Position numbers and translations under genes: made by a program
In this document: piece after piece, positions 11,531 to 27,937 of the stretch
How the letters are laid out: the number at the start of each line of letters is the position of its first letter
How positions within the stretch are numbered: the first letter of the stretch is position 1
NCBI GenBank assembly: GCA_030654015.1
Contig: JAURYI010000002.1
Coordinates: 1-64,000, forward strand
Origin: Methylococcales bacterium
GTDB lineage: Bacteria > Pseudomonadota > Gammaproteobacteria > Methylococcales > Methylomonadaceae
DNA length: 64,000 bases
Reading direction: 5' to 3'
Notes under the pieces: generated by a model
The model's database searches: none
What the model was told of the DNA's origin: nothing
Seen by the model: only the letters and a program-made list of their open reading frames with translations

Positions 11531-11953
11531 ATTTGGCAAGATAGGATGTACACAGGTTTCATCAAATTACTCAAACACGCAAGGTCTTAAAGACTTTGCA
11601 GGCAGGGGCAAATATCTCCGTCAATCAATCTGGAACAATTGAACTGTTAATTTCATGGGTGCCTCTTTTGATTTTCCTGCGGATATAGCGGCATTTGTGT
11701 TCAATGAGGCAGAAAATTTGGCAATCGTACGTCACAAGATTACATTGATAAGGGTGTAGTAATAAGTTTGCGTGTGTTTGGAGTGCAAGCTTCGCTTGCA
11801 AGTCAGGCAAAGCCTGACCTCCAGTGTTCAGAAATAGGTCTAAGAACTTAATCGCTAAGAATGGTTTGAATTGTTTATAGTGTGCCTCCTGTCTCGCTAC
11901 GTCCTGTGGTACTTTTTAACTCGGCTATTTGTTCATTAAAAGGAAACGTTATT
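11531..11953. other. Intergenic region with one copy of the 83-bp direct repeat
   Basis: No convincing gene in this 420-base stretch. It holds the 83-bp repeat at 11754-11836, which contains a 43-bp palindrome of the same design as those in the restriction-modification region. A ribosome site (AGGAAAC) for the following glutaredoxin gene lies at its right end. Short frames here lack ribosome sites and family signatures. Confidence 0.7.
11754..11836 (+). repeat. 83-bp direct repeat, copy 1, with embedded palindrome
   Basis: Identical to 12428-12510 at 81 of 83 positions. Its core (11780-11822, 43 bp) runs from GGAG to CTCC and comprises two small hairpins, TGCAAGC-TTC-GCTTGCA and GTCAGGC-AAA-GCCTGAC. 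The second hairpin is the same unit found repeatedly at 17.6-24.9 kb. Confidence 0.9.
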
Positions 11954-12427: not shown

Positions 12428-12510
12428 GTGTAGTAATAAGTTTGCGTGTGTTTGGAGTGCAAGCTTCGCTTGCAAGTCAGGCAAAGCCTGGCCTCCAGTA
12501 TTCAGAAATA
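12428..12510 (+). repeat. 83-bp direct repeat, copy 2, with embedded palindrome
   Basis: Second copy of the repeat at 11754-11836, same orientation, differing at two positions (one in the right arm of the palindrome, one after it). The 43-bp core is at 12454-12496. Together with copy 1 it brackets the glutaredoxin gene. Confidence 0.9.
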
Positions 12511-14945: not shown

Positions 14946-16475
14946 ATGTTTATGTTTAACATTAAAACGCGCGTGTTCCTCGTTCCCATGCTCTGCGTGG
15001 CAATGCCGCTACTATCCGCCTGTACGCTTGGCCCTGATTTTGTGCGTCCAGACAGTCCAGATACGCCAAACTACACCAGCGAAAAACTGCCAAAACCAGT
15101 GAACGGGCAAACCGTGTTAATGGGCAAAGAAATGCCCGCGCAGTGGTGGATGTTGTTTCGTTCCCCGCCATTAACTGCATTAATTGCCCAAGCATTAAAA
15201 CACAGCCCCGATTTACAAGCCGCGCAAGCTACTCTAACCCAAGCCGCAGAACTGGCAGAGGCGAAACAAGGTTCGTTATTTCCCGCATTGGATGCAGGCT
15301 ATTCGGCAAAACGGCAACAAATTTCGGGGGCGCAATTTGGTAATCCCAGCGCGTCAGGTTCGTTATTCAGTATTTACAATGCTTCGGTCAACGTGTCTTA
15401 TACGTTGGATGTATTCGGCAGTGTACAGCGACAAATTGAAGGCTTGATGGCGGAGGCGGATTATCAACGCTTTCAACTGGAAGGCGCGTTTTTAACGCTG
15501 TCCTCCAATATTGTCACTACAGTAATAGCAGAAGCGGCATTACGCGAGCAAATCAGCGTCATTGAAGAGCTGATTAAGTTGCGCGTTGAGCAACTGACGA
15601 TTATTAAACAACAAGTTGAGTTAGGCAGTGCGTCACAAGTCGATGTATTAGCGCAACAAACCGCGTTGGAACAGGAACGCGCCAATTTGCCGCCGTTGCA
15701 AAAACAGTTACAGCAAAATCGCCACCGATTATCGGTACTGGTCGGTGATTTGCCCAGCACTGCACCCGCCGCGCAATTTAAACTGGCTGATTTAAAACTG
15801 CCTGCACAATTACCCGTTAGCTTACCGTCTAAACTGGTGGCGCAACGTCCTGATATTCGCGGACAAGAAGCGTTGTTAAAAGCCGCTAATGCGCAAATTG
15901 GCGTGATTACTGCCAAGATGTTTCCTGATTTTACCCTCAGTGCCAGTGCCGCCAGTATTGCGACCAAAGTCGGTGATTTATTTGTGCCAGGCAGTGCGAT
16001 ATGGAATACAGGACTGAATTTATTACAGCCGATTTTCCACGGTGGTGAAAATATAAACGAGCGCAATGCCGCGATAGCCGCTTATGAAGCGGCGGCGGCA
16101 CGGTATCGCAGTACTGTATTGCTGGCGTTTCAAAATGTCGCCGATACCTTGACTGCGTTAGACAGTGATGCCAATGAGGTCAACATTCAAACCGCCGCTG
16201 AACGCGCCGCATTAGCGAGTTTAGAACTCAGCACTACCCAATATAAAGTCGGTGCGGTCAGTTATTTAACCTTGCTGACTGCGCAAAACGCCTATCAACA
16301 AACGCGCATTGCTCACATTAAAGCGCAAGCCACCCAACTTGCCGATACCGCCGCACTGTTTCAATCCTTGGGCGGCGGCTGGTGGCAACGCGCTGATTTA
16401 GGCAGGGAATTAGCCGCCCTGCACAAAAAACCTGAGACCTCATGGTTACCTTTTTTCGATTGGAATGTTAAATGA
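14946..16475 (+). CDS. RND efflux outer membrane channel (NodT/OprM type)
   Basis: Trimeric outer-membrane channel of a tripartite efflux pump. It has a lipoprotein signal (LLSACTLGPDF, acylated Cys) and two tandem OEP repeats, each with long coiled helices rich in Ala and Gln, and the LVAQRPDIRGQEALLKAANAQIG region typical of OprM relatives. Start could be 14946 or 14952; both retain the signal. Its stop overlaps the adaptor start (ATGA). The matching pump gene is now 7 kb downstream because of an insertion. Confidence 0.93.
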   Translation: MFMFNIKTRVFLVPMLCVAMPLLSACTLGPDFVRPDSPDTPNYTSEKLPKPVNGQTVLMGKEMPAQWWMLFRSPPLTALIAQALKHSPDLQAAQATLTQAAELAEAKQGSLFPALDAGYSAKRQQISGAQFGNPSASGSLFSIYNASVNVSYTLDVFGSVQRQIEGLMAEADYQRFQLEGAFLTLSSNIVTTVIAEAALREQISVIEELIKLRVEQLTIIKQQVELGSASQVDVLAQQTALEQERANLPPLQKQLQQNRHRLSVLVGDLPSTAPAAQFKLADLKLPAQLPVSLPSKLVAQRPDIRGQEALLKAANAQIGVITAKMFPDFTLSASAASIATKVGDLFVPGSAIWNTGLNLLQPIFHGGENINERNAAIAAYEAAAARYRSTVLLAFQNVADTLTALDSDANEVNIQTAAERAALASLELSTTQYKVGAVSYLTLLTAQNAYQQTRIAHIKAQATQLADTAALFQSLGGGWWQRADLGRELAALHKKPETSWLPFFDWNVK

Positions 16476-17587
16476 TAAAACGATTACTGATTATGCTGGT
16501 CATTGTGGGTTTGATATTTGGCGGCATTTTTGGCTTTATTAATTTTAAAACCAAAATGATTAAGCAATATATGGCGGGTATGGGCAACGCACCACAAACC
16601 GTATCCACCATGACCGCCAGTTATGCACAATGGTCGCCGAGTACCGAAACCATTGCCAGTTTAACCGCTGTGCGCGGTGCGGATTTAAGTGCCGAAGTAT
16701 CGGGCATGGTGACAGAAATTTTCTTTCAGCAAGGCGATGAAGTCGCCGCAGGTACGCCCTTAGTGCAGCTACGCGCTGATGATGATATTGCCAAATTAAA
16801 CGGTTTAAAAGCCGAACAGGAACTGGCGCGACTCACTTATCAACGTAATCAGGCGCAATTGGCAGCAAAAGCCGTCAGTCAGCAAACCATCGACAACGAT
16901 AAAGCAACACTGGCTAAATTAACTGCCAATGTTGCCGAACAGCAGTCCGTAGTGAATAAAAAACTGATTCGCGCACCGTTTACCGGACGCTTGGGTATCC
17001 GCTTGGTCGATACAGGGCAGTATTTGAATGCAGGTACGGCAATCGTCACCCTGCAAGCCTTGGATGCCTTGTATGTGGATTTTTATCTGCCGCAACAAAT
17101 GCTGGCTAAAGTGGCTATCGGGCAAATCGTGCATCTTAAAGTCGATGCCTATCCTGAGCAGGATTTTGTCGCGACTGTCGCAGTGATTAATCCTAAAGTC
17201 GATACCAGCACACGCAACGTGCAGATAAGAGCCAAGCTGGATAATGCCAAACATCAATTATTGTCGGGGATGTACGCGACGGTGAATCTTGCTACCGATG
17301 CCGCGCAACGCCTGTTGACCTTACCCAACACGGCGATTAGTTTTAACTCCTACGGTTCGACGGTATTTTTAATTGAAACCGACAAGGACAAAAAGCTGAC
17401 TGCTAAACAAGTGTTTGTCACCACAGGTGCGACACGCGGCGATCAAGTGAGTGTGATTAAAGGGCTGAAAGAAGGCGATACGGTAGTGACTTCGGGACAA
17501 ATCAAGTTACGCAATGGCTCACCTGTGATTATTAATAACACGGTGCAGCCTAACAATAACGTTGCGCCGCAGGTGACAGATCAATAA
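16472..17587 (+). CDS. RND efflux periplasmic adaptor (membrane fusion protein)
   Basis: 371-residue HlyD/MexA-type adaptor with one N-terminal membrane anchor (residues 3-24), a barrel-sandwich lipoyl half-motif (GMVTEIFFQQGDEVAAGTPLV), an alpha-hairpin of about 80 residues, the second lipoyl half (RAPFTGRLGIRLVDTGQYL), then beta-barrel and membrane-proximal domains. It links the inner-membrane pump to the channel encoded upstream. Immediately after its stop comes a 43-bp palindrome and the restriction-modification insert, not the pump. Confidence 0.93.
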   Translation: MIKRLLIMLVIVGLIFGGIFGFINFKTKMIKQYMAGMGNAPQTVSTMTASYAQWSPSTETIASLTAVRGADLSAEVSGMVTEIFFQQGDEVAAGTPLVQLRADDDIAKLNGLKAEQELARLTYQRNQAQLAAKAVSQQTIDNDKATLAKLTANVAEQQSVVNKKLIRAPFTGRLGIRLVDTGQYLNAGTAIVTLQALDALYVDFYLPQQMLAKVAIGQIVHLKVDAYPEQDFVATVAVINPKVDTSTRNVQIRAKLDNAKHQLLSGMYATVNLATDAAQRLLTLPNTAISFNSYGSTVFLIETDKDKKLTAKQVFVTTGATRGDQVSVIKGLKEGDTVVTSGQIKLRNGSPVIINNTVQPNNNVAPQVTDQ

Positions 17588-17592
17588 GTATT

Positions 17593-17635
17593 GGAGGTCA
17601 GGCTTTGCCTGACTGTCAGGCAAAGCCTGACCTCC
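17593..17635. repeat. 43-bp palindrome, left edge of the inserted module
   Basis: A perfect 21-bp inverted repeat around one central T. The left arm begins GGAGGTCAGGC and ends GCCTGAC; the right arm ends GCCTGACCTCC. Each arm is itself a small hairpin with a TTT or AAA loop. It starts five bases after the adaptor stop. GGAGG followed after seven bases by TTG offers a ribosome site and start codon for the next ORF. Confidence 0.95.
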
Positions 17636-20600
17636 AGTATAGCCGCACTGAATTGGCTAATATTGCCCGCGAATTCAACAAAATATTTCCGATGCCCGTG
17701 TTACTGCTGATAAAACATGGCGACCGTCTCACCCTCGCTATTGTCCATCGTCGTTTAAACAAACAAAATGCCGATAAAGACGTATTGGAAAAAGTCACCC
17801 TGATTAAAGACATTAGCATCGAAAATACACACCGAGCGCATATTGAAATCCTGCATGACTTAAGCCTAGCAAAACTACGCGACACGCACCATTTCACCAA
17901 TTTTGTTGAACTGCACAAAGCATGGCAAAAAACCTTAGACACTAACGCACTGAATAAACGCTTTTACAAAGAATTATCCAACTGGTATTTCTGGGCAAGC
18001 AAACACGTTTATTTTCCTGACGCTGAAGCCGAAGCCTTAAAAGGTGGCATTTTTGCTGATTCTGAAAAAGTCCACGAACACAATGCTAAAAACTTAATTC
18101 GTTTACTAACCCGCTTGCTGTTTGTTTGGTTTATCAAAGAAAAACACCTGATTCCCGATGAATTATTCAAAGAAAACTGGTTAAAAAATCAACTTAAACA
18201 CTTTAATCCACAAGCGACTACGCTAGCGACGCAAGGCAATGAAAGCCACTATTACCGCGCTGTGTTACAAAACCTGTTTTTTGCAACGCTGAATCAAACA
18301 CGCGGCAAACGCGAATTTCGTAAAGATGGACAACACCGCAACATCACCAATTTGCTACGCTATAAAAACTACTTTAACGACCCAGACGCATTCGTAAAGT
18401 TACTTGAAGCCGTTGTACCGTTTATGAATGGCGGCTTGTTTGAATGCTTGGATAAAGTCGTGCCTGATAAAAAAGGCAAACAAGGCGGCGATGTGATTGC
18501 CTACGAAGACGGTTTTTCTGACCGTGCCGACAACATCCTAAAAGTCCCTGATTTTATTTTTTTCGGCACACACAAACAGGTTGATTTAAGCGCGGAGTTA
18601 GGCAATAAAAGCAAATCGGTCGAAATCAAAGGGCTGATTGATTTATTACAATCGTATAAATTCACCATCAGTGAAAACACCCCGATTGAAGAAGACATAG
18701 CCCTAGACCCCGAATTATTAGGGCAAGTATTTGAAAACCTGCTTGCCAGTTACAATCCTGAAACAGGGGTAACAGCGCGTAAACAAACGGGCAGTTTTTA
18801 TACCCCGCGTGAAATCGTCAACTACATGATTGATGAATCCCTGTTAGCGTATTTTGGAGGTCAGGCTTTGCCTGACGGTCAAGCGGAGCTTGACCTCCCG
18901 CGTGATGGAGGTCAGGCTTTGCCTGACGGTCAAGCAAAGCTTGACCTCCTGCGGGATTTGTTGAGTTATAACAGCACGGGAAATCCTTTCAACCCCGCCG
19001 CAACGCAAGTATTAATTCACGCTATCGACAACTGCAAAATTTTAGACCCTGCTTGTGGTTCTGGCGCGTTTCCGATGGGCATATTGCATAAACTGGTACA
19101 TTGCTTACACAAACTCGACCCTGATAATAAACAATGGCAAGCGGTGCAACGGGCAAAAATACTGCACGATACCCAAACAGCGATGAGCATTGAGGACAAC
19201 AAAGAACTCAGCGACAAACTCAAAGAAATCAACAACGCCTTTGACAGTGCGGTCAATCATCCCGACTATGCGCGAAAATTATTTTTAATTGAAAACTGCA
19301 TTTACGGTATCGATATACAAGCCATTGCCATACAAATCAGCAAACTACGGTTTTTTATCTCCTTAGTCGTCGATCAAATCGTTAATTCTGATAAAGATAA
19401 TTTCGGTATTTTGCCACTGCCCAATTTAGAAACCAAGTTTGTCGCGGCGAATACCTTAATCGGCATTGAAAAACCCAAAGCGCAACGCAGTCTATTTGAT
19501 AACACCGACATTGAAGCTTTGGAAAATGAATTAAAAGACGTGCGGCATCGTTTATTCAGTGCCAAAACGCCCCGAACCAAACGGGAATTACGCGCTAAAG
19601 ATGAAGCCTTGCGTGAACAAATCGGTGCGTTATTGATTCAAGATGGTTGGCAAGCAGGCACGGCTAGCCAACTTGCGGGATGGAGTCCTTATGACCAAAA
19701 TGCCAGCAGCGGATTTTTTGATAGTGAATGGATGTTTGGATTTAAACACTTTGATATTGTCATTGGTAATCCGCCTTATGTTCAGGTTAAAAAAGGAATT
19801 TTCAGTGAGTCGCAATTTCCATATTCGGAAGGCAAAGACAAAGGTAAACAAAATTTATACAAAGTTTTCACTGAACAGTCGTTTAATTTAATTAAAAATG
19901 GTGGAGTTGCATCACTGATTGTACAAAGTTCTTTAATGGCTGACGTGTCATCACAATACACTCGTGAATTGTTATTAACAAAAACTAAAATTAGCTTTTT
20001 TATTGAATTCCCTAAAAAATCAAGTAATGCTGACGGACAAGTTTTTGAAAATGTTTTACAAGGAACTTGCGTATATTTGTTTAGAAAAGAACAGCCAGAT
20101 GAAAAAACATCGTTCAATGTATCAATAAACAATGACGTTACAACAATTAACGATCTGATTTTTGATAGTCTGAATCAAAGCGAACTTATCAAAATTTATC
20201 CAAATGGATTTTTTATCCCATTAGTAATGCCTAATGAGTTTAACCTTGCTCAAAACGTATTCAACAAATCGAAACCACTTTCTGAATTTATTACAGGTAT
20301 TAAAAAAGGCGATATAAGCTCAGACACAGATAAAAAATTATTTTTTGAAAAAGTAGAAGGTTACAAGTTAATCAGAGGAAATAATATTCAACGATATTTT
20401 TGTAAATCAGGTTTTGATTTTGTCCAAATCAATGACAAAACAGAATTAATGAAAAAAAAGAATCATGAACAGTCAATTATTGCATTTCAAAATATCACTG
20501 GAACGGTTGATTTACATAGAATTCATAGTTGCTTATTTGAAAAACAAGATGATTTGATTTTTTTAGATACGACAATAAAGGTTTATGTGAAAGAAAATGC

Positions 20601-20925
20601 AAATTCAAAATTTTTGCTTGCCTGTATTAATTCATCGTTAATGGATTGGTATTTTAGAAAAACAAGCACAAATAACCATGTTAACGGTTATGAAATTAAA
20701 GAGTTGCCCATTCCCAAAATCCCCCCCAACCAACAACAACCCTTCATCGATCTAGTGGATAAAATCCTTGCGGCTAAACAGTCTGGAGGTCAGGCTTTGC
20801 CTGACTGTCAGGCAAAGCCTGACCTCCATGCGTGGGAGCGTGAAATAGATTCCTTGGTTTATGCGTTGTATGGTTTGACCGATGCAGAAATAGCCATTGT
20901 GGAGGGGAGGTCAGGCTCTGCCTGA
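17605..20925 (+). CDS. Eco57I-type adenine DNA methyltransferase, probably 5' truncated
   Basis: A large N6-adenine DNA methyltransferase with target recognition region, from the type IIG/PglX-like group. It shows motif X (TGSFYTPREIVNYMID), the SAM-binding DPACGSG at residue 481 and the catalytic NPPY at residue 722, followed by a TaqI-C-like specificity domain. The C-terminal LVYALYGLTDAEIAIVE is a typical family ending. The open frame begins with TTG inside a palindromic repeat. The first conserved segment (YSRTELANIAREFNK) follows at once and reads like the middle of a domain, so the native N-terminus is probably missing. Palindromes are translated in frame at residues 418-451 (two units) and about 1061-1075, and a third, in another frame, supplies the stop. 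Activity is uncertain. Confidence 0.85.
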   Translation: MPDCQAKPDLQYSRTELANIAREFNKIFPMPVLLLIKHGDRLTLAIVHRRLNKQNADKDVLEKVTLIKDISIENTHRAHIEILHDLSLAKLRDTHHFTNFVELHKAWQKTLDTNALNKRFYKELSNWYFWASKHVYFPDAEAEALKGGIFADSEKVHEHNAKNLIRLLTRLLFVWFIKEKHLIPDELFKENWLKNQLKHFNPQATTLATQGNESHYYRAVLQNLFFATLNQTRGKREFRKDGQHRNITNLLRYKNYFNDPDAFVKLLEAVVPFMNGGLFECLDKVVPDKKGKQGGDVIAYEDGFSDRADNILKVPDFIFFGTHKQVDLSAELGNKSKSVEIKGLIDLLQSYKFTISENTPIEEDIALDPELLGQVFENLLASYNPETGVTARKQTGSFYTPREIVNYMIDESLLAYFGGQALPDGQAELDLPRDGGQALPDGQAKLDLLRDLLSYNSTGNPFNPAATQVLIHAIDNCKILDPACGSGAFPMGILHKLVHCLHKLDPDNKQWQAVQRAKILHDTQTAMSIEDNKELSDKLKEINNAFDSAVNHPDYARKLFLIENCIYGIDIQAIAIQISKLRFFISLVVDQIVNSDKDNFGILPLPNLETKFVAANTLIGIEKPKAQRSLFDNTDIEALENELKDVRHRLFSAKTPRTKRELRAKDEALREQIGALLIQDGWQAGTASQLAGWSPYDQNASSGFFDSEWMFGFKHFDIVIGNPPYVQVKKGIFSESQFPYSEGKDKGKQNLYKVFTEQSFNLIKNGGVASLIVQSSLMADVSSQYTRELLLTKTKISFFIEFPKKSSNADGQVFENVLQGTCVYLFRKEQPDEKTSFNVSINNDVTTINDLIFDSLNQSELIKIYPNGFFIPLVMPNEFNLAQNVFNKSKPLSEFITGIKKGDISSDTDKKLFFEKVEGYKLIRGNNIQRYFCKSGFDFVQINDKTELMKKKNHEQSIIAFQNITGTVDLHRIHSCLFEKQDDLIFLDTTIKVYVKENANSKFLLACINSSLMDWYFRKTSTNNHVNGYEIKELPIPKIPPNQQQPFIDLVDKILAAKQSGGQALPDCQAKPDLHAWEREIDSLVYALYGLTDAEIAIVEGRSGSA
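18856..18957. repeat. Two tandem palindrome units inside the methyltransferase gene
   Basis: Two 51-bp units, each a 43-bp palindrome (18856-18898 and 18907-18949) plus an 8-bp tail. The right arms carry the variant AAGC..GCTTGACCTCC. They are translated in frame as two 17-residue units, GGQALPDGQAELDLPRD and GGQALPDGQAKLDLLRD, placed between motif X and motif I of the methyltransferase. Confidence 0.95.
20785..20827. repeat. 43-bp palindrome inside the methyltransferase gene, near its end
   Basis: Identical in sequence to the copy at 17593-17635. It is translated in the same frame as the other internal copies (GGQALPDCQAKPDL) and lies just ahead of the conserved C-terminal WEREIDSLVYALYGL segment. 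Confidence 0.95.
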
Positions 20926-20950
20926 TAGGGTCAAGCAAAGCTTGACCTCC
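20906..20950. repeat. 45-bp palindrome variant ending the methyltransferase gene
   Basis: Begins GGAGGTCAGGCTCTGCCTGA and ends GCTTGACCTCC, with two extra central bases. It is entered in a different frame from the internal copies, and its TGA at 20923-20925 is the methyltransferase stop. The RAYT gene starts nine bases after it. Confidence 0.93.
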
Positions 20951-20958
20951 TGATTACT

Positions 20959-21492
20959 ATGCTGAAAAAACAAGCCCATCGACCCGCACATTTATTATTG
21001 GATCATAGCCCTTATTTTATTACTGCCAGCACCCATGAAAAACGCCCCTTATTAAATGACATAATAAAAATTCAATTATTAGCTATTCTGCGGCAAGAAT
21101 TTGAACGCTGTTTATGGCGGTTTGACCATTGGGTTATTTTAAATAATCATTATCATATTATGGTACACAGCCATAAAGGTGAAGACTTAGGCAAGATAAT
21201 AGGACGGGCGCATTATAAATCAGGGCAGATCATTCGAGAACGTCATGCTGAACTTCCTCATGTTTGGTGGAATTATTGGGATTATTGTCCACGCGATGAA
21301 AAGGATTATTTTATTCGGCTAAATTATTTATTTAATAATCCGATTAAACATGGTTATGTGAATAACTTACGCTATTATCCTTATTCCAGTTTTAATACGA
21401 TGCTAGAAAAACAGGGGCGTGAATTATTAGCCAAGCAATTTAAAGAATATGATGATTATAAAACATTGGTTTTGGATGAAGATGAATTTTAA
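20959..21492 (+). CDS. REP-associated tyrosine transposase (RAYT, IS200-like Y1 family)
   Basis: A 177-residue single-strand DNA transposase of the HUH superfamily. The metal-binding HYH motif is at residues 64-66 (NNHYHIMVHS), and the likely nucleophilic tyrosine is Tyr123 in LNYLFNNPIKHGY, the typical RAYT helix. Known RAYTs bind and process REP hairpins that flank their own gene. Here palindromes of the 43-bp family flank it at 20906-20950 and 21500-21583, so it is the natural candidate for spreading them. It lies between the methyltransferase and helicase genes of the inserted module. Confidence 0.9.
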   Translation: MLKKQAHRPAHLLLDHSPYFITASTHEKRPLLNDIIKIQLLAILRQEFERCLWRFDHWVILNNHYHIMVHSHKGEDLGKIIGRAHYKSGQIIRERHAELPHVWWNYWDYCPRDEKDYFIRLNYLFNNPIKHGYVNNLRYYPYSSFNTMLEKQGRELLAKQFKEYDDYKTLVLDEDEF

Positions 21493-21499
21493 TTACTCA

Positions 21500-21583
21500 G
21501 GAGGTCAGGTTTTGCCTGATTGTCATTTTTACTGTCAAGCAAAGCTTGACCTCCATGTTACTGTCAGGCAGAGCCTGACCTCC
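21500..21583. repeat. Palindrome and an extra half unit behind the RAYT gene
   Basis: A diverged full unit at 21500-21554 (left arm GGAGGTCAGGTTTTGCCTGA, longer AT-rich centre, right arm GTCAAGCAAAGCTTGACCTCC) is followed by a lone right arm at 21563-21583 (GTCAGGCAGAGCCTGACCTCC). It fills the space between RAYT and the helicase gene and probably serves as the right-hand RAYT-flanking repeat. Confidence 0.9.
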
Positions 21584-21603
21584 AATAACGGAGTCTGACT
21601 TCG

Positions 21604-24600
21604 ATGATACGCGATAATTATCAGCACGGTACGGTCGGTGAGTTTCTCAAGGATACCCTGTTGCCCGATTCTGAGGTGGCGATTGTGTCTGCCTATTTCA
21701 CTTTATATGCTTACCATGCGTTAAAAAACAGGCTGGATGGTATTGAGCATTTGCGGTTTTTATTTGGTGAGCCGACCTTTATTCATGCAAATGACAGCAA
21801 GTTACACTACCGTGATTTTAAAATCGAGGATGAACAGCTTGTTATCGCGCTGAAAGAGCGGTTAAGTCAACATCAGATTGCCAAGCAATGCGCGGACTGG
21901 TTACGCGCTAAGGCGGATATTCGTTCGATGGTGAAACCGAATTTTCTGCACGGTAAGCTGTATCACATCACTCAAGCCAGTGGCATAGAAAAGGCGATTG
22001 TCGGTAGTTCTAATTTTACCGTAAATGGTTTAGGACTGGGCGGTAGTAAGAATATTGAGTTGAATGTCATTATTGACAGTGACCGTGATAGAGCGGCATT
22101 GAAAGCATGGTTTGATAAGCTGTGGAATGATGAGACTGGCTTGGTACAGGATGTTAAGGCGGAGGTGTTGCGTTATTTGGAGCAGTTTTATCGGGATAAC
22201 AGTCCGCAATTTATTTATTTAAAAACGCTTTATCATTTGTTTGCCGATACCATTGCCGAGCAGGAAAATAATTTGGCGATTGCGGAAAAAATCGGTTTTT
22301 ATGACACACAAATCTGGCAATGTTTGTATGATTTTCAAAAAGATGGCGTTAAAGCGGCGATTAATAAAATCATTAAACACAACGGCTGTATTATTGCCGA
22401 TAGTGTGGGTTTAGGAAAAACCTTTGAAGCCTTGGCGGTGATTAAATACTTTGAATGTCGCGGTGATAGGGTGTTATTAATCTGCCCGAAAAATCTGAGT
22501 AACAATTGGACGCTGTATCAGGCACGGCAAAATCACGCGGCAAATTCTTTGAAAAAAGACCGTTTTGATTATACGGTGTTGCATCATACTGATTTAGGCA
22601 GAACGACAGGGAAATCCAGTGCTAATGGCATAGCGTTAAGTAATTTTCACTGGGGAGCTTATGATTTAGTGGTGATTGATGAATCGCATAATTTTCGCGG
22701 CAATCCTTTGGAAAAAACTACCGCTAATGGCGATAAGGTATTAAATCGAGCGAAATGGTTGTTGGATGAAATTATTAAATCGGGTGTGAAAACTAAGGTG
22801 TTATTGCTGTCCGCTACACCTGTTAATAATAATTTACGCGATTTAAGCAATCAGATTGCGTTAATTACCGAAGGCAAAGAAGACGCACTGAGTGATTTTC
22901 AGATTAAAAATATCACGCAAACCCTGAAAACTGCACAAAATCAATTTACTAATTGGGCAGATGCTAAAAAGAACCCGCAGCGAAATATGAAACAATTACT
23001 GGCTACGTTGGATGCTGGGTTTTTTACTATTTTAAATGAATTAACCATTGCTCGCTCACGCCGACATATTCAGCATTTTTATGATCTGGAAGCGGAGATT
23101 GGACAATTTCCAGAACGTAATAAACCGTTGTCTGTGTATGTCGATATTGATACAGAACACGGTTTTCCCAGTTATGAAGTATTGAATCAACAAATTCTCG
23201 GCTATAAACTGGCGATTTTTAATCCGTCTGCTTATTTAAAAGTAGAGCAACAAGCTAAATATCACGCTACGTTGGGTAAGCAGCGTGAGCATAATTTAGT
23301 CGGTATGATGCAGGTGAATTTTCTTAAACGACTGGAAAGTTCAATTGCGTCTTTTACGTTGTCTTTAAAGCGAACCATCGCCAAAATTGCTGATATAGAA
23401 CATAAAATTATAGCTTTTCAAGGAGGTCAGGCTTTGCCTGACAGTCAGGCAGAGCCTGACCTCCAGAATCAGGCAAAGCTTGACCTCCTGCTTGACGATG
23501 AATTAGACGAAGACTGGGTAGGTCAAAAATTAAAATTTAATCTGGCTGATCTTGAGTTGGATAATTGGCTGTTTGATTTACGGCAAGATCAATTGGCATT
23601 AAAGACTTTGCTTAAAAATGCGCTAACGATTACCCCAGAGCGTGATGCGAAACTGCATAAATTAAAATGTTTAATTAGTGAAAAAATCGCTCAGCCCATT
23701 AATGCCGATAATAAAAAAATTATTATTTTCACCGCGTTTGCAGATACGGCGATTTATCTGCATGAACACTTAAGTGCATGGTATGCCAGCGAATTTAATT
23801 TACATTGTGCGTTGATTTGTGGCAACAGTACCAAAACCAGTTATGGTAAAAATGATTACAACAGTATTTTGACGCATTTCTCACCACGCGCAAAACAACG
23901 CACTGGAATAGAAACGGCTGAAATTGACTTATTAATTGCGACTGATTGCATCAGCGAAGGGCAAAACTTACAAGACTGTGACTATTTAATTAATTACGAC
24001 ATTCATTGGAATCCAGTACGCATTATTCAACGCTTTGGACGTATAGACCGCTTAGGTAGTCAAAATACTTGCATTCAATTAGTTAATTTTTGGCCCACTA
24101 AAGAACTGGATAACTATATTAATTTAAAAGCGCGAGTCGAAGCGCGTATGGCGTTGGTTGATGCCAGTGCAACGGGTGAAGATAATTTACTGACTATCGA
24201 AGAAGAAATAGACAGTGAATTAAAATACCGTCATCAACAGTTGGAAAAATTGAAGCATGAAGTGTTAGACCTTGAAGATATGGATGAATCTTTATCACTG
24301 ACAGATTTTAACCTAGCCGATTTCAAGCATGAATTATTGAATCAGTTTGATAATCAGCGTCAGCAACTTCTCAACGCCCCGCTAGGTTTATACGCGCTGG
24401 TATCCGCTCAGAATGGAATGCCATCGGGTGTGATTTTTTGTTTACGACAAACAGCCCAACACGATAATAATCAAAAAATAAATCCTTTAACGCCGTATTT
24501 TCTGGTCTATATCGGTGACAATGGCACGGTGCATTATCACTACAGCCACGTTAAACAAATTTTAGAAATTTTTAAAACCTTGTGTGACGATAAAGAACAC

Positions 24601-24876
24601 GCTTGTGAAACCTTGTGCCAGTTATTTAATCAGCAAACCCAAAACGGTGCGGATATGAGTCATTACAGCGAGTTATTGAACCTAGCGGTCGCTGAATTAG
24701 TGACGGTGGTAAAAAATAAGGGTCAACAAAGTGTATTATCGGGACGCGGGGGCGTATTAATGCCAGAGAAAAAACAGGTCAATTCACTAGCGGATTTTGA
24801 GTTAATAACGTGGTTGATTATTCATGGAGGTCAGGCTTTGCCTGACAGTCAGGCAAAGCCTGACCTCCAACCGTAA
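21604..24876 (+). CDS. Phospholipase D-like nuclease fused to SNF2-type helicase
   Basis: A 1090-residue restriction-type protein. Residues 1-180 are a PLD-like nuclease domain with HGK (His116, Lys118) and GSSN (134-137). Residues 240-900 are an SF2/SNF2 helicase with Walker A ADSVGLGKT (265-273), DESH (359-362), motif III LLSATPVNN and motif VI QRFGRIDRLGSQN. It is likely the ATP-dependent nuclease partner of the methyltransferase upstream, resembling R.NgoAVII/R.CglI in domain order. A palindrome and a half unit are translated in frame from about residue 607 to 629, and another forms the last residues after DFELITWLII, replacing the native stop. The frame is otherwise intact. Confidence 0.88.
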   Translation: MIRDNYQHGTVGEFLKDTLLPDSEVAIVSAYFTLYAYHALKNRLDGIEHLRFLFGEPTFIHANDSKLHYRDFKIEDEQLVIALKERLSQHQIAKQCADWLRAKADIRSMVKPNFLHGKLYHITQASGIEKAIVGSSNFTVNGLGLGGSKNIELNVIIDSDRDRAALKAWFDKLWNDETGLVQDVKAEVLRYLEQFYRDNSPQFIYLKTLYHLFADTIAEQENNLAIAEKIGFYDTQIWQCLYDFQKDGVKAAINKIIKHNGCIIADSVGLGKTFEALAVIKYFECRGDRVLLICPKNLSNNWTLYQARQNHAANSLKKDRFDYTVLHHTDLGRTTGKSSANGIALSNFHWGAYDLVVIDESHNFRGNPLEKTTANGDKVLNRAKWLLDEIIKSGVKTKVLLLSATPVNNNLRDLSNQIALITEGKEDALSDFQIKNITQTLKTAQNQFTNWADAKKNPQRNMKQLLATLDAGFFTILNELTIARSRRHIQHFYDLEAEIGQFPERNKPLSVYVDIDTEHGFPSYEVLNQQILGYKLAIFNPSAYLKVEQQAKYHATLGKQREHNLVGMMQVNFLKRLESSIASFTLSLKRTIAKIADIEHKIIAFQGGQALPDSQAEPDLQNQAKLDLLLDDELDEDWVGQKLKFNLADLELDNWLFDLRQDQLALKTLLKNALTITPERDAKLHKLKCLISEKIAQPINADNKKIIIFTAFADTAIYLHEHLSAWYASEFNLHCALICGNSTKTSYGKNDYNSILTHFSPRAKQRTGIETAEIDLLIATDCISEGQNLQDCDYLINYDIHWNPVRIIQRFGRIDRLGSQNTCIQLVNFWPTKELDNYINLKARVEARMALVDASATGEDNLLTIEEEIDSELKYRHQQLEKLKHEVLDLEDMDESLSLTDFNLADFKHELLNQFDNQRQQLLNAPLGLYALVSAQNGMPSGVIFCLRQTAQHDNNQKINPLTPYFLVYIGDNGTVHYHYSHVKQILEIFKTLCDDKEHACETLCQLFNQQTQNGADMSHYSELLNLAVAELVTVVKNKGQQSVLSGRGGVLMPEKKQVNSLADFELITWLIIHGGQALPDSQAKPDLQP
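23422..23488. repeat. Palindrome plus half unit inside the helicase gene
   Basis: A full 43-bp unit (23422-23464) followed by a lone right arm ending at 23488. It is translated in the standard frame (GGQALPDSQAEPDL, then NQAKLDLLL) between two helical segments of the helicase, and is probably a surface loop. Confidence 0.93.
24826..24868. repeat. 43-bp palindrome, right edge of the inserted module
   Basis: Same as the left-edge copy except that the central base is A. It is translated as the C-terminal tail of the helicase (GGQALPDSQAKPDLQP and stop). The efflux pump gene begins 27 bases later. Confidence 0.95.
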
Positions 24877-24895
24877 AATATACAAAAGACATACC

Positions 24896-27800
24896 ATGAC
24901 ATTTACTGATATTTTCATACATAAGCCCGTTCTGGCAACCGTGGTTAGTCTGGTGCTGCTGGTGCTGGGCTTGCGGTCTTTAAGTGATTTACCCGTGTTG
25001 CAATACCCGCGCACCGAAAATGCGGTGGTTACGGTGTCTACCGCTTATTACGGCGCGGATGCAGAAGTGATTGCGGGTTTTATCACTACGCCCTTGGAAA
25101 ATGCGATTTCTCAGGCGAATGGCATTGATTACATGACTTCTACCAGTCATACAGGCATGAGTACCATCACGGCGAATTTACGTCTGAATGTCGATAGTAA
25201 TGATGCGCTGACGGAAATTACCGCTAAAGTAAATTCCGTACTGAATCAATTACCGCCTGAAGCACAAAATCCCGTTATCAATGTCAAAATCGGCGAAACC
25301 ACCGATGCCATGTATATCGGTTTTTCCAGTGATGTCCTGCCCGCCAACAATATCACCGATTATCTGACGCGCTCTGTACAGCCCAAATTGCAGTCGGTCA
25401 GCGGCATACAACTGGCAGAAATTCTGGGCGGCAAAAATTTTGCGTTACGCGCGTGGCTAGATCCGAACAAATTGGCAGCGTATTCATTGACTGCTACCGA
25501 TGTGAATGCAGCACTGGCAAAAAACGATTTTTTATCCAGTTTAGGCAATACCAAAGGCACGATGGTGCAGGTCAATTTAACGGCCTCGACTAATTTGCAC
25601 AGCGTTGAAGAATTTGAACAGCTGATTATTTATCAAAAAAACGGAGTACTGGTACGCCTGAAAGATGTTGCTAACGTGACCTTAGGGTCGGATGATTATG
25701 AATCCAACGTGGCGTTTGACGGCAATAAAGCGGTGTATATCGGCTTGCAAATCGCCCCCGATGCCAATTTGCTGGAAGTGATCGGGCGTGTGAAAGCGGT
25801 GCTTCCAGACATTCAGGCGCAATTGCCCACAGGTATAGACGCAAAAATTGTGTACGACACCACTGAGTTTGTTAAAAGCGCGGTTGATGGTGTGATTCAC
25901 ACGCTGGTTGAAGCGTTGTTGATTGTGGTTCTGGTCGTGTTTATTTTTCTGGGGTCGCCGCGTGAAATTCTGATTCCCGTCATCGCCATTCCGCTGTCGT
26001 TAATCGGCACGTTCAGCATGATGTTATGGCTGGGCTTTTCCATTAATTTGCTGACGCTGTTGGCGTTGGTGATTGCGATTGGTTTGGTGGTTGATGATGC
26101 GATTATTATTGTCGAAAACGTCAATCGTCATTTAAAACACGGCATGACTCCCGTGGCTGCGTCGTTATTGGCGGCGCGTGAGTTGGCAGGGCCGATTATT
26201 TCCATGACGGTGGTATTAATTGCGGTGTATGTGCCTGTGGGGTTTCAGGGCGGACTGACGGGCGCGTTGTTTTCTGAGTTTGCCTTTACCTTGGCAGGCG
26301 CGGTGACTATTTCCGCCGTGGTCGCGCTCACCTTATCACCGATGATGTGTTCAAAAATGCTCAAACCCCATGATGATAGCCGTCATGGGTGGGAAGAAAA
26401 AACCATTGAGTTCATTGACCGTAGTTTTGACAAGCTCAGCCATACCTATTCACGGATGCTGCATGGTTCGCTGAATTATTTGCCCGTTACAGTTCTGTTC
26501 GCGCTGATTATTCTGGTCAGCAGTTATTTTCTCTATCAAAGTGCTAAAAGTGAATTAGCTCCGCAAGAAGATCAGGGCATTGTGCTGGCATTTTCCACCA
26601 GCGCACCTAATGCAACGCTTGAACAGCGGTTAATGTATGCAGGGCAGGTGCTGAATATCTTTCAAAAACACGCCGAAACCGATCATGTGTTTCAGTTGGA
26701 TATGCCCGGTCAATCTATTGCAGGCATGGTGCTGAAACCGTGGGATAAGCGGGAGCTGAATTCTAACGCATTGCAGCCGATGATACAGCAAGAACTGAAT
26801 GCGATTGCAGGCAGTCGGGTGGCGGCGATTCAATTGCCGTCTTTGCCGGGTAGTAGCGGAATGCCGATACAATTTGTTATTAATTCCACTGAATCGCCGA
26901 CTAAAATGCTGGCGGTGTCCGAGCAGTTTATGCAGGAAGCGCAAAAAAGCGGAATGTTCATGTTTCTGAACAGTGATTTAAAAGTCGATCAACCGCAGTC
27001 GCGCGTTATGATTGACCGTAATAAAACCGCCTTGCTGGGTTTGACCATGCAGGATGTCGGCGCGTCATTAAGTGCGTTATTGGGCGGTAATTATGTCAAT
27101 TATTTCAGCGTGGCGGGACGCTCGTATCGCGTCATTCCCCAAGTACAGCAACAGGCGCGACTCAATGCGGATCAATTGCTTAATTATCAATTCCGTACTG
27201 CCAATGGCGCGTCATTGGCACTGTCCAGTATTGCCTCCATTGAAACTGAAACCGTGCCGCAGTCATTAAACCATTTTCAACAGCTGAATTCGGCGACCAT
27301 TTCAGGCGTACCGTTGCCCGATGTCGCCTTGGGTGACGCATTGCACAGCTTAAAAGAATTGGCGGATAAAACCCTGCCTGTGGGTTATTCAGTGGATTAT
27401 GGCGGGCAGGCGCGGCAAGTGATGCAGGAATCCAATTCCTTTATGTTCACCTTTTTATTCGCGCTGATTATTATTTTTCTTGCCTTGGCGGCGCAATTTG
27501 AGAGCTTTCGTGATCCGTTTATTATTTTGGTATCGGTGCCGATGTCGATTACAGGCGCATTGATTTTTGTCGCCTTAGGCATCGGCAACGCCACGCTGAA
27601 CATTTATACCGAAGTGGGCTTTGTCACCTTGATGGGTTTAATCAGTAAACATGGTATTTTAATCGTCGAGTTTGCCAATCAAAGCCAACTGGCAGGCAAA
27701 AGCAAACGTGAAGCCATTGAAATCGCCGCCAGTACCCGTTTGCGCCCTGTGTTAATGACTACCGCCGCGATGGTGTTAGGTGTATTGCCGCTGATTGTTG

Positions 27801-27937
27801 CTACAGGTGCAGGTGCGGCGGCGCGGTTTAATATGGGACTGGTGATTGCCTCAGGTTTGGCAATTGGTACACTGTTCACGTTATTTGTGGTACCAGCGGT
27901 GTATTTATTGCTGGGGCAAAATCACACGAACAAATAA
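24896..27937 (+). CDS. RND efflux pump, inner-membrane permease
   Basis: Proton-driven resistance-nodulation-division transporter of about 1013 residues, with twelve membrane segments and two large periplasmic loops. The proton-relay aspartates are in GLVVDDAIIIVENV, and the second half has GFVTLMGLISKHGILIVEFAN. ATG at 24896 gives the standard MTFTDIFIHKPVLATV start; the upstream TTG lies in the palindrome and is rejected. It belongs with the channel and adaptor at 14.9-17.6 kb. Its original ribosome site may have been altered by the insertion, as only AT-rich sequence and the palindrome precede it. Confidence 0.95.
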   Translation: MTFTDIFIHKPVLATVVSLVLLVLGLRSLSDLPVLQYPRTENAVVTVSTAYYGADAEVIAGFITTPLENAISQANGIDYMTSTSHTGMSTITANLRLNVDSNDALTEITAKVNSVLNQLPPEAQNPVINVKIGETTDAMYIGFSSDVLPANNITDYLTRSVQPKLQSVSGIQLAEILGGKNFALRAWLDPNKLAAYSLTATDVNAALAKNDFLSSLGNTKGTMVQVNLTASTNLHSVEEFEQLIIYQKNGVLVRLKDVANVTLGSDDYESNVAFDGNKAVYIGLQIAPDANLLEVIGRVKAVLPDIQAQLPTGIDAKIVYDTTEFVKSAVDGVIHTLVEALLIVVLVVFIFLGSPREILIPVIAIPLSLIGTFSMMLWLGFSINLLTLLALVIAIGLVVDDAIIIVENVNRHLKHGMTPVAASLLAARELAGPIISMTVVLIAVYVPVGFQGGLTGALFSEFAFTLAGAVTISAVVALTLSPMMCSKMLKPHDDSRHGWEEKTIEFIDRSFDKLSHTYSRMLHGSLNYLPVTVLFALIILVSSYFLYQSAKSELAPQEDQGIVLAFSTSAPNATLEQRLMYAGQVLNIFQKHAETDHVFQLDMPGQSIAGMVLKPWDKRELNSNALQPMIQQELNAIAGSRVAAIQLPSLPGSSGMPIQFVINSTESPTKMLAVSEQFMQEAQKSGMFMFLNSDLKVDQPQSRVMIDRNKTALLGLTMQDVGASLSALLGGNYVNYFSVAGRSYRVIPQVQQQARLNADQLLNYQFRTANGASLALSSIASIETETVPQSLNHFQQLNSATISGVPLPDVALGDALHSLKELADKTLPVGYSVDYGGQARQVMQESNSFMFTFLFALIIIFLALAAQFESFRDPFIILVSVPMSITGALIFVALGIGNATLNIYTEVGFVTLMGLISKHGILIVEFANQSQLAGKSKREAIEIAASTRLRPVLMTTAAMVLGVLPLIVATGAGAAARFNMGLVIASGLAIGTLFTLFVVPAVYLLLGQNHTNK

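Follow-up and report, generated by a model that had tools for sequence, protein, structure and literature searches.

The stretch analysed here, hereafter the window, comprises the first 64,000 nucleotides of contig JAURYI010000002.1 of a Methylococcales bacterium (assembly GCA_030654015.1; contig C17 of a 3.66-Mb draft genome), and from 17593 to 24868 it carries eight palindromes resembling REPINs, that is, hairpins built from two inverted repetitive extragenic palindromes (REPs). They lie in and around two restriction-type genes, a methylase gene (M) and a helicase gene (S), with the gene of a REP-associated tyrosine transposase (RAYT) between the two. With a probability of about 0.8, we hold that the REPINs were most likely spread by this RAYT, clustered near it, survived where they fell into variable linkers, and mark the breakpoints of the restriction module. 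As a kind of element REPINs are known; what is unusual, and instructive, is where they are found here, inside two restriction-type genes of a methane-oxidising bacterium and next to the gene for their probable copying enzyme.

The 43-bp palindromes at 17593, 18907, 20785, 23422 and 24826 have zero to two mismatches to their consensus, while none of 100 shuffles contained a single match; the copy at 18856 fits a relaxed 43-mer pattern, so that the near-identical palindromes listed in the initial annotation, which was made from the sequence alone, are real. Single arms with at most three mismatches number 19 in the window against a shuffled mean of 0.00. The description as 21-bp arms around a one-base centre holds for the palindrome as a whole and needs correcting in one respect: each element is a pair of smaller hairpins placed head to head (REP, one centre base, inverted REP), every 21-bp arm consisting of the foot GGAG followed by the hairpin GTCAGGC-TTT-GCCTGAC. 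Because each arm is itself a REP, the 43-mers are REPINs, nonautonomous mobile hairpins in which two REPs, each with GGAG as its foot tetranucleotide, face each other in inverted orientation. They show the features by which REPs and REPINs are recognised: short hairpins that bear a 5′ tetranucleotide foot and recur across the genome, inverted doublets, and a mainly extragenic position. Folded as single-stranded DNA, all eight are more stable than their shuffles (z from −4.1 to −11.3; for the element at 20906, 1 of 200 shuffles was equally stable), with one long hairpin in six of them and two small hairpins in those at 18856 and 20906. The variants at 20906–20950 and 21500–21554 likewise exist, and border on either side the RAYT gene, which the initial annotation left unmentioned.

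The protein encoded between the two restriction-type genes exceeds the cut-off of the REP_Tyr_transpos model (NF047646, 88.9 bits against 80), also matches Y1_Tnp, and has both the HUH and the Y---NP motifs of a RAYT; in the alignment of RAYTs, HYH is present in 30/31 and Y plus NP in 31/31. Its sole match among solved structures at E ≤ 1 is E. coli TnpAREP (4er8, E 5e-9). An IS200/IS605 insertion sequence is ruled out by the Y---NP motif, which is not the Y---Q of class 1, and by the single genome copy of the window RAYT. The genome has two RAYT matches at E ≤ 1e-10. The second (L078, C43:44452–44985) is 60% identical to the window RAYT and is adjoined by hairpins with another core (GGAGTCCAAAAC...). 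As is usual for RAYTs, there is one gene per REP type, flanked by that REP: window-family REPINs stand on both sides of the gene in the window, in G095 (RAYT 75% identical) and in G286 (73%). The dN/dS of the RAYT between the window and G095 is 0.07. By analogy with E. coli TnpAREP, it would be a single-strand HUH nuclease that cuts and rejoins at the GGAG foot.

The foot itself departs from the GTAG or GTGG that PMC6006769 reports for the 66 families on which its search rules rest, four REP sequences being exceptions to those rules. Within 200 bp of the gene, GGAG directly before a stem of at least 6 was found at 25/30 RAYT loci and at two control stretches, GTAG and GTGG at two loci each; GAGT, also at 25/30, is the GGAG foot shifted by one base. 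Hairpin cores vary widely among these 30 homologues. We treat the GGAG foot as a trait of a subgroup, since CGTC (PMC3733652) and CnGA (PMC6006769, class 3) feet have also been published. At the positions aligned to the foot contacts of E. coli TnpAREP (W94-Q95-E100-H101-R104), the window RAYT reads W-W-D-Y-R, and in at least 29 of the 31 RAYTs W94 and R104 are kept while Q95, E100 and H101 are changed to W, D and Y. The changed residues may set the GGAG specificity, and foot and residues together make a testable specificity switch.

The initial annotation likened the elements to the palindromic elements of Rickettsia, a fair analogy of outcome, since those are also palindromes translated in frame within genes (PMC10969869, PMC3733652). 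The likeness does not extend to identity: Rickettsia elements are described as about 150 bp long (PMC10969869) with a CGTC end, those of the window are 43 bp with GGAG ends and belong to Methylococcaceae, and 123 of 133 scanned elements lie outside frames open on both sides. With a RAYT flanked by the same palindromes as well, it is scarcely credible that they are Rickettsia-type elements or ordinary protein repeats with no connection to REPs and RAYTs, and both were rejected on size, ends, copies outside open frames, and the RAYT.

Searched with up to three mismatches, the genome contains 61 arms (reversed control pattern, 0), 17 of them within 7.3 kb around the RAYT, where 0.12 would be expected from a uniform distribution, and 44 elsewhere. 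We distinguish three arrangements: the 43-mer stands naked (A), forms part of a longer palindrome, TGAGTGAT...ATCACTCA (B), or is a hybrid whose second arm is of the GTGCAAGC type, mostly embedded in a longer conserved sequence (C). Outside the module, naked copies occur at C19:16411 and C119:32351. Contigs C97 and C109 (L066, L058) also open with one; the flank is common to both, and a single site may be involved. REPINs probably interrupt the assembly, in which case copy numbers may be underestimates. B and C (L049–L075) form two larger repeat families with the REPIN as core, suggesting nested mobile elements.

At two mismatches or fewer, the arm is present in 27/237 genomes of the family, the window genome included, and in 8/29 genera; with these counts in hand, the strict 43-mer search of 40 relatives, which found none, is no measure of absence. 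In genome_contigs, a collection that may leave out records near the window's genome, 13 stretches matched the relaxed 43-mer, all of them under Methylococcaceae titles; in viral contigs there were 0. Confinement of the motif to this locus was one of two findings named beforehand as telling against inserted elements; the other was homologues carrying the same peptide with no palindrome nearby. Neither was observed: the motif occurs elsewhere too, and the peptide is missing from the aligned homologues without a palindrome (eight homologues aligned for M, eight for S).

Two linkers, one in the methylase and one in the helicase, are recurrent targets, relatives holding other palindrome families there or nothing. 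The methylase linker separates FYTPREIV, which we take to be motif X-like, from DPACGSG, presumably motif I. Among 12 distinct readable homologues (45 loci scanned), it contains a palindrome in seven: the window, G095, G127, G006, G208, G162 and G213. It is unfilled in G020, G226, G198 and G562, in the alignment also in G176, and the linker of G010, with at most a decayed remnant, is counted as unfilled. Filled and unfilled linkers were sorted by resemblance to REP sequences, inverted-repeat length alone failing to sort them (8 in the window and 7 in G095 vs. 8 in G198 and 7 in G010). The helicase linker has a REPIN in 3/16 readable homologues (30 loci): the window, G006 and G127, all with GGAG in codon phase 1.

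The filled homologues differ in what fills them. G095, from another genus (UBA6146), has the order S-RAYT-M with REPINs on either side of the RAYT, and its M contains one in-frame REPIN at the position of the window's 17593 copy plus a decayed one in the methylase linker. G127, with the same gene order, has hairpins of another family (GGAGTGCAAGC) next to the RAYT and in the methylase linker, and a hybrid REPIN in the helicase linker. Both linkers of G006 hold REPIN-like elements of other families, with cores resembling hairpins beside RAYTs of other genomes. In G208, G162 and G213 (L084, L090, L091), a C-rich palindrome of several hairpins (CCCCCTTTGAAGGGGG), without the GGAG foot, is translated in the methylase linker; these inserts are nearly identical and may stem from one event. 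The S and M matches of G127 (L114) are each broken by an in-frame stop, and that copy of the system may therefore be decaying.

This refilling by unrelated families in several genera, with every accepted internal copy of the window family in the same frame, might also be read as recruitment, the REPINs either tuning the restriction enzyme as exchangeable linkers or regulating the operon as mRNA or DNA hairpins. We think this unlikely: the linkers are unfilled in 5/12 methylase and 13/16 helicase homologues, the filling peptides are wholly different in sequence, and tolerance accounts for the same pattern. Our preferred reading is that copies in both genes would have been kept where a stop-free peptide of about 14 residues falls in linkers that, as the alignments show, were already variable.

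The copies at 18856, 18907, 20785, 23422 and 24826 are translated in one frame, as first noted, reading GGA GGT CAG... to give GGQALPDxQAKPDL and variants (frame 1), and the 17593 copy is open into the methylase in frame 1. Frame 2 is open too (EVRLCLTxRQSLTS) and frame 3 holds a TGA, in agreement with the statement that one of the other two frames is open; the 20906 copy, in frame 3, provides the methylase stop codon at the natural C-terminus. In a gene, a REPIN adds about 14 residues of flexible, stop-free peptide, rich in G, P, Q and D in frame 1, more hydrophobic and with one cysteine in frame 2. In stretches from 18 genomes, covering part of their copies, 10/133 elements lie in frames that remain open for 50 codons on the upstream and 30 on the downstream side; seven of these ten rows (eight copies) were accepted as intragenic, all in frame 1. 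The remaining three, judged without a homology test, were not accepted. Those of L136 (frame 2) and L204 (frame 1) lie in short open frames whose contexts are alike, and that of L174 (frame 1) in what resembles an upstream extension of a transporter frame. If coding, L136 would be a counter-example to the frame rule.

The two restriction-type genes, in which the initial annotation correctly placed the elements, are not the only targets. In the window genome, the transcription-repair coupling factor gene mfd (L059 3020–3063, contig C127:24019) contains a hybrid REPIN translated in frame 1; GGQASPDAASGACSP takes the place of a short variable linker, QPNDDESSA in the 97%-identical relative G002. 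The element is absent in 5/5 same-genus relatives aligned (G002, G001, G003, G006, G007), and mfd has a dN/dS of 0.05 against G002.

For about six separate sites and a free choice of two open frames, the chance of a constant frame is about 0.5^6, a figure that is post hoc and in which the ancestry common to window and G095 copies reduces the number of events. The preference for frame 1 over the open frame 2 at every accepted internal copy is thus a weak bias, most simply explained by selection for a soluble, flexible peptide. The initial annotation had left selection and mechanism side by side. Insertion chemistry that itself sets the frame would account for frame 1 at all four internal window copies, both G095 methylase copies, the G127 and G006 helicase linkers, the G127 methylase linker and mfd; yet the events are few and counted post hoc, the 20906 copy is in frame 3, L136 in frame 2, and the G006 methylase-linker element, of another family whose own frame 1 has a stop, uses a different frame. 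We consider such chemistry very improbable and rejected it as unnecessary, since with frame 3 closed and the G006 element in a different frame, selection on the outcome is enough.

In G003, G006 and G007, the adaptor and pump genes of an efflux operon are adjacent, 2 bp from stop to start codon; in the window, the gap between them is the restriction module, with a REPIN at either border. (The gap in G002, which is 98–99% identical, is about 290 bp and contains GGAG/CTCC hairpins of another family; L269.) The methylase lacks about 110 N-terminal residues of its relatives, its frame starting at the 17593 palindrome so that the break coincides with a REPIN edge; a genome search with the missing 110 residues of the G095 protein gave no match, a weak result as it had no positive control. 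Among ten relatives' stretches, eight hold both genes, with S before M in 8/8 and the RAYT between them in two, whereas the window order is M-RAYT-S. REPINs mark the breakpoints of the N-terminal loss, the change of gene order and the entry into the efflux operon; as to the cause, the module may have moved as a cassette or the REPINs may have recombined. A more specific version of cassette movement is doubtful. In it, the outer REPINs would have served the RAYT as the ends of a larger unit, in the way that hairpins serve IS200/IS605; the RAYT would have cleaved exactly at the REPIN within the methylase gene, put the REPIN-bounded pieces M, RAYT and S into a new order and delivered them into the efflux operon. 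REPtrons reportedly seem not to transpose as a unit (PMC6006769). Were this version true, RAYTs would mobilise defence genes, a route to their rearrangement.

Alternatively, the module may have come by horizontal transfer with its REPINs inside, none having moved since, and the clustering would then reflect ancestry, not local hopping. Adjacent efflux genes with no module between them in three relatives are consistent with this, as is G095, which has REPINs at two methylase sites and after the helicase gene and all five of its arms (at most two mismatches) within its RAYT/restriction locus. We regard this as a real possibility, though short of an even chance: the window copies at 20785 and 23422 occupy sites that are empty in G095, a further one at 18907 stands second in a tandem, the mfd copy is absent from the five same-genus relatives, and 44 more arms lie elsewhere in the genome. 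On our preferred reading, spread by the RAYT, many copies would have landed beside the RAYT gene, and hence near both restriction genes because that gene sits inside the module; the clustering is observed, and a local preference would explain it. The RAYT adjoins S or M in the window, G095, G127 and G200 (4/30 loci), by coordinates also in G294 and G086. RAYTs next to restriction genes do not form one clade (five in the tree, four changes; 144/500 shuffles as low), and we therefore do not claim one ancestral capture. On contig C148 of G086 (17598–22552), a methylase-like gene is flanked by two copies of a RAYT, one of which contains stops.

Several points weigh against spread by the RAYT. The mobility is a proposal drawn from sequence, in which transposition is what we infer; import of the whole module with its REPINs could account for the clustering; and several routes of mobility may exist, because many genome copies are embedded in the longer repeats B and C. 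A RAYT match at E ≤ 1e-10 is present in 11/27 arm-bearing genomes (G000, G006, G218, G022, G127, G154, G242, G286, G287, G095 and G248, some matches distant or fragmentary) against 58/210 others, leaving 16/27 without one, contrary to strict pairing; these include G151 (23 arms, mostly hybrids) and G271 (27 arms). Many arm-bearing genomes are drafts; three loci show clearly the pairing of the window REP with a RAYT of the window kind, which across drafts is weak. No GGAG hairpin was found in the foot test at 5/30 RAYT loci. Survival where tolerated stands against no count of losses, as the frame scan is blind to copies that break a gene or sit near gene ends. The truncated M may have lost restriction activity. 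Constraint, which speaks for the preferred reading, shows in a dN/dS of 0.12 for the methylase part against G095, besides the low values of the RAYT and mfd; dS was not computable for the helicase gene.

The elements share with the REPINs and RAYTs (TnpAREP) of Pseudomonas and enterobacteria, as described in PMC3116915 and PMC6006769, the hairpin with a 5′ tetranucleotide foot, the inverted REP doublets, the RAYT flanked by its own REPs, the class 2 Y---NP motif and the patchy distribution; they differ in the GGAG foot and in the several copies inside genes. REPINs have been presented as replicating doublets, with excision reads (PMC3116915). Translated REPs are already known as a kind: PMC3733652 describes GTAG/CGTC REPs wholly inside open reading frames, translated, many of them in DNA repair genes, proposes linkers or loops as tolerant sites and reports that in two Xanthomonas species recB was hit at nearly one position. 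The copy in mfd agrees with this. The present elements have another foot, and from genus to genus one linker is filled by different palindrome families; the word "restriction" is absent from the main text of that paper, whose target-gene list stands in an additional file outside this check. Our searches of the open PMC literature, as far as its accessible text goes, turned up no account of GGAG REPs or of a REP/RAYT group with that foot in Methylococcaceae, of restriction genes that carry REPINs or have their linkers refilled repeatedly, or of a restriction module reordered and bordered by REPINs. REPIN movement is rarely visible; with the same two linkers filled by different palindrome families across genera and unfilled relatives as controls, this one locus allows insertion, tolerance and foot–RAYT coevolution to be followed.

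Table 1. Features of the window bearing on the REPINs and the restriction module.
Feature	Position	Strand	Remarks
Hybrid REPIN	11780..11822	−	one arm of the GGAG window family, the other of the GTGCAAGC family; outside listed open frames
Second hybrid REPIN	12454..12496	−	outside listed open frames
Membrane-fusion adaptor gene of efflux operon (presumed)	16472..17587	+	left neighbour; adjoins pump gene in three relatives
REPIN 1	17593..17635	.	module left border; frame 1 into methylase; same residue position as internal REPIN of homologue G095
M, type IIG/Eco57I-like adenine methyltransferase frame	17605..20925	+	true start uncertain; about 110 N-terminal residues fewer than homologues
REPIN 2	18856..18898	.	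frame 1; methylase linker between FYTPREIV and DPACGSG; recurrent site
REPIN 3	18907..18949	.	frame 1; tandem with REPIN 2
REPIN 4	20785..20827	.	frame 1; linker near methylase C-terminus
REPIN 5 (variant)	20906..20950	.	frame 3; provides methylase stop codon; RAYT upstream flank
RAYT (Y1_Tnp)	20959..21492	+	HYH and Y---NP motifs
REPIN 6 (variant, longer spacer)	21500..21554	.	RAYT downstream flank
Single REP arm	21563..21583	−	between RAYT and helicase gene
S, PLD (HKD) + SNF2 helicase protein	21604..24876	+	best PADLOC model C3a139 "HKD+Snf2"
REPIN 7	23422..23464	.	frame 1; variable acidic helicase linker between SNF2 and Helicase_C matches; recurrent site
Additional single REP arm	23468..23488	−	translated together with REPIN 7
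REPIN 8	24826..24868	.	frame 1, C-terminal tail of S; module right border; same place as REPIN after S in G095
RND-type pump gene (presumed)	24896..27937	+	right neighbour

The names of the two efflux genes in Table 1 are our assumption from the sequence. In domain content the restriction genes resemble a type IIG methylase and an HKD+Snf2 helicase (PADLOC models), and they are neighbours as in the eight relatives' stretches that hold both, from which the window differs in gene order and in the truncated M. A plasmid search gave matches to 95 records, all of them covering at most 80% of the query; the eight matches listed are to helicase or methylase stretches. The class-wide methylase search reached 6/369 genomes, the window genome included, and yielded one more readable linker, which is unfilled (L264).

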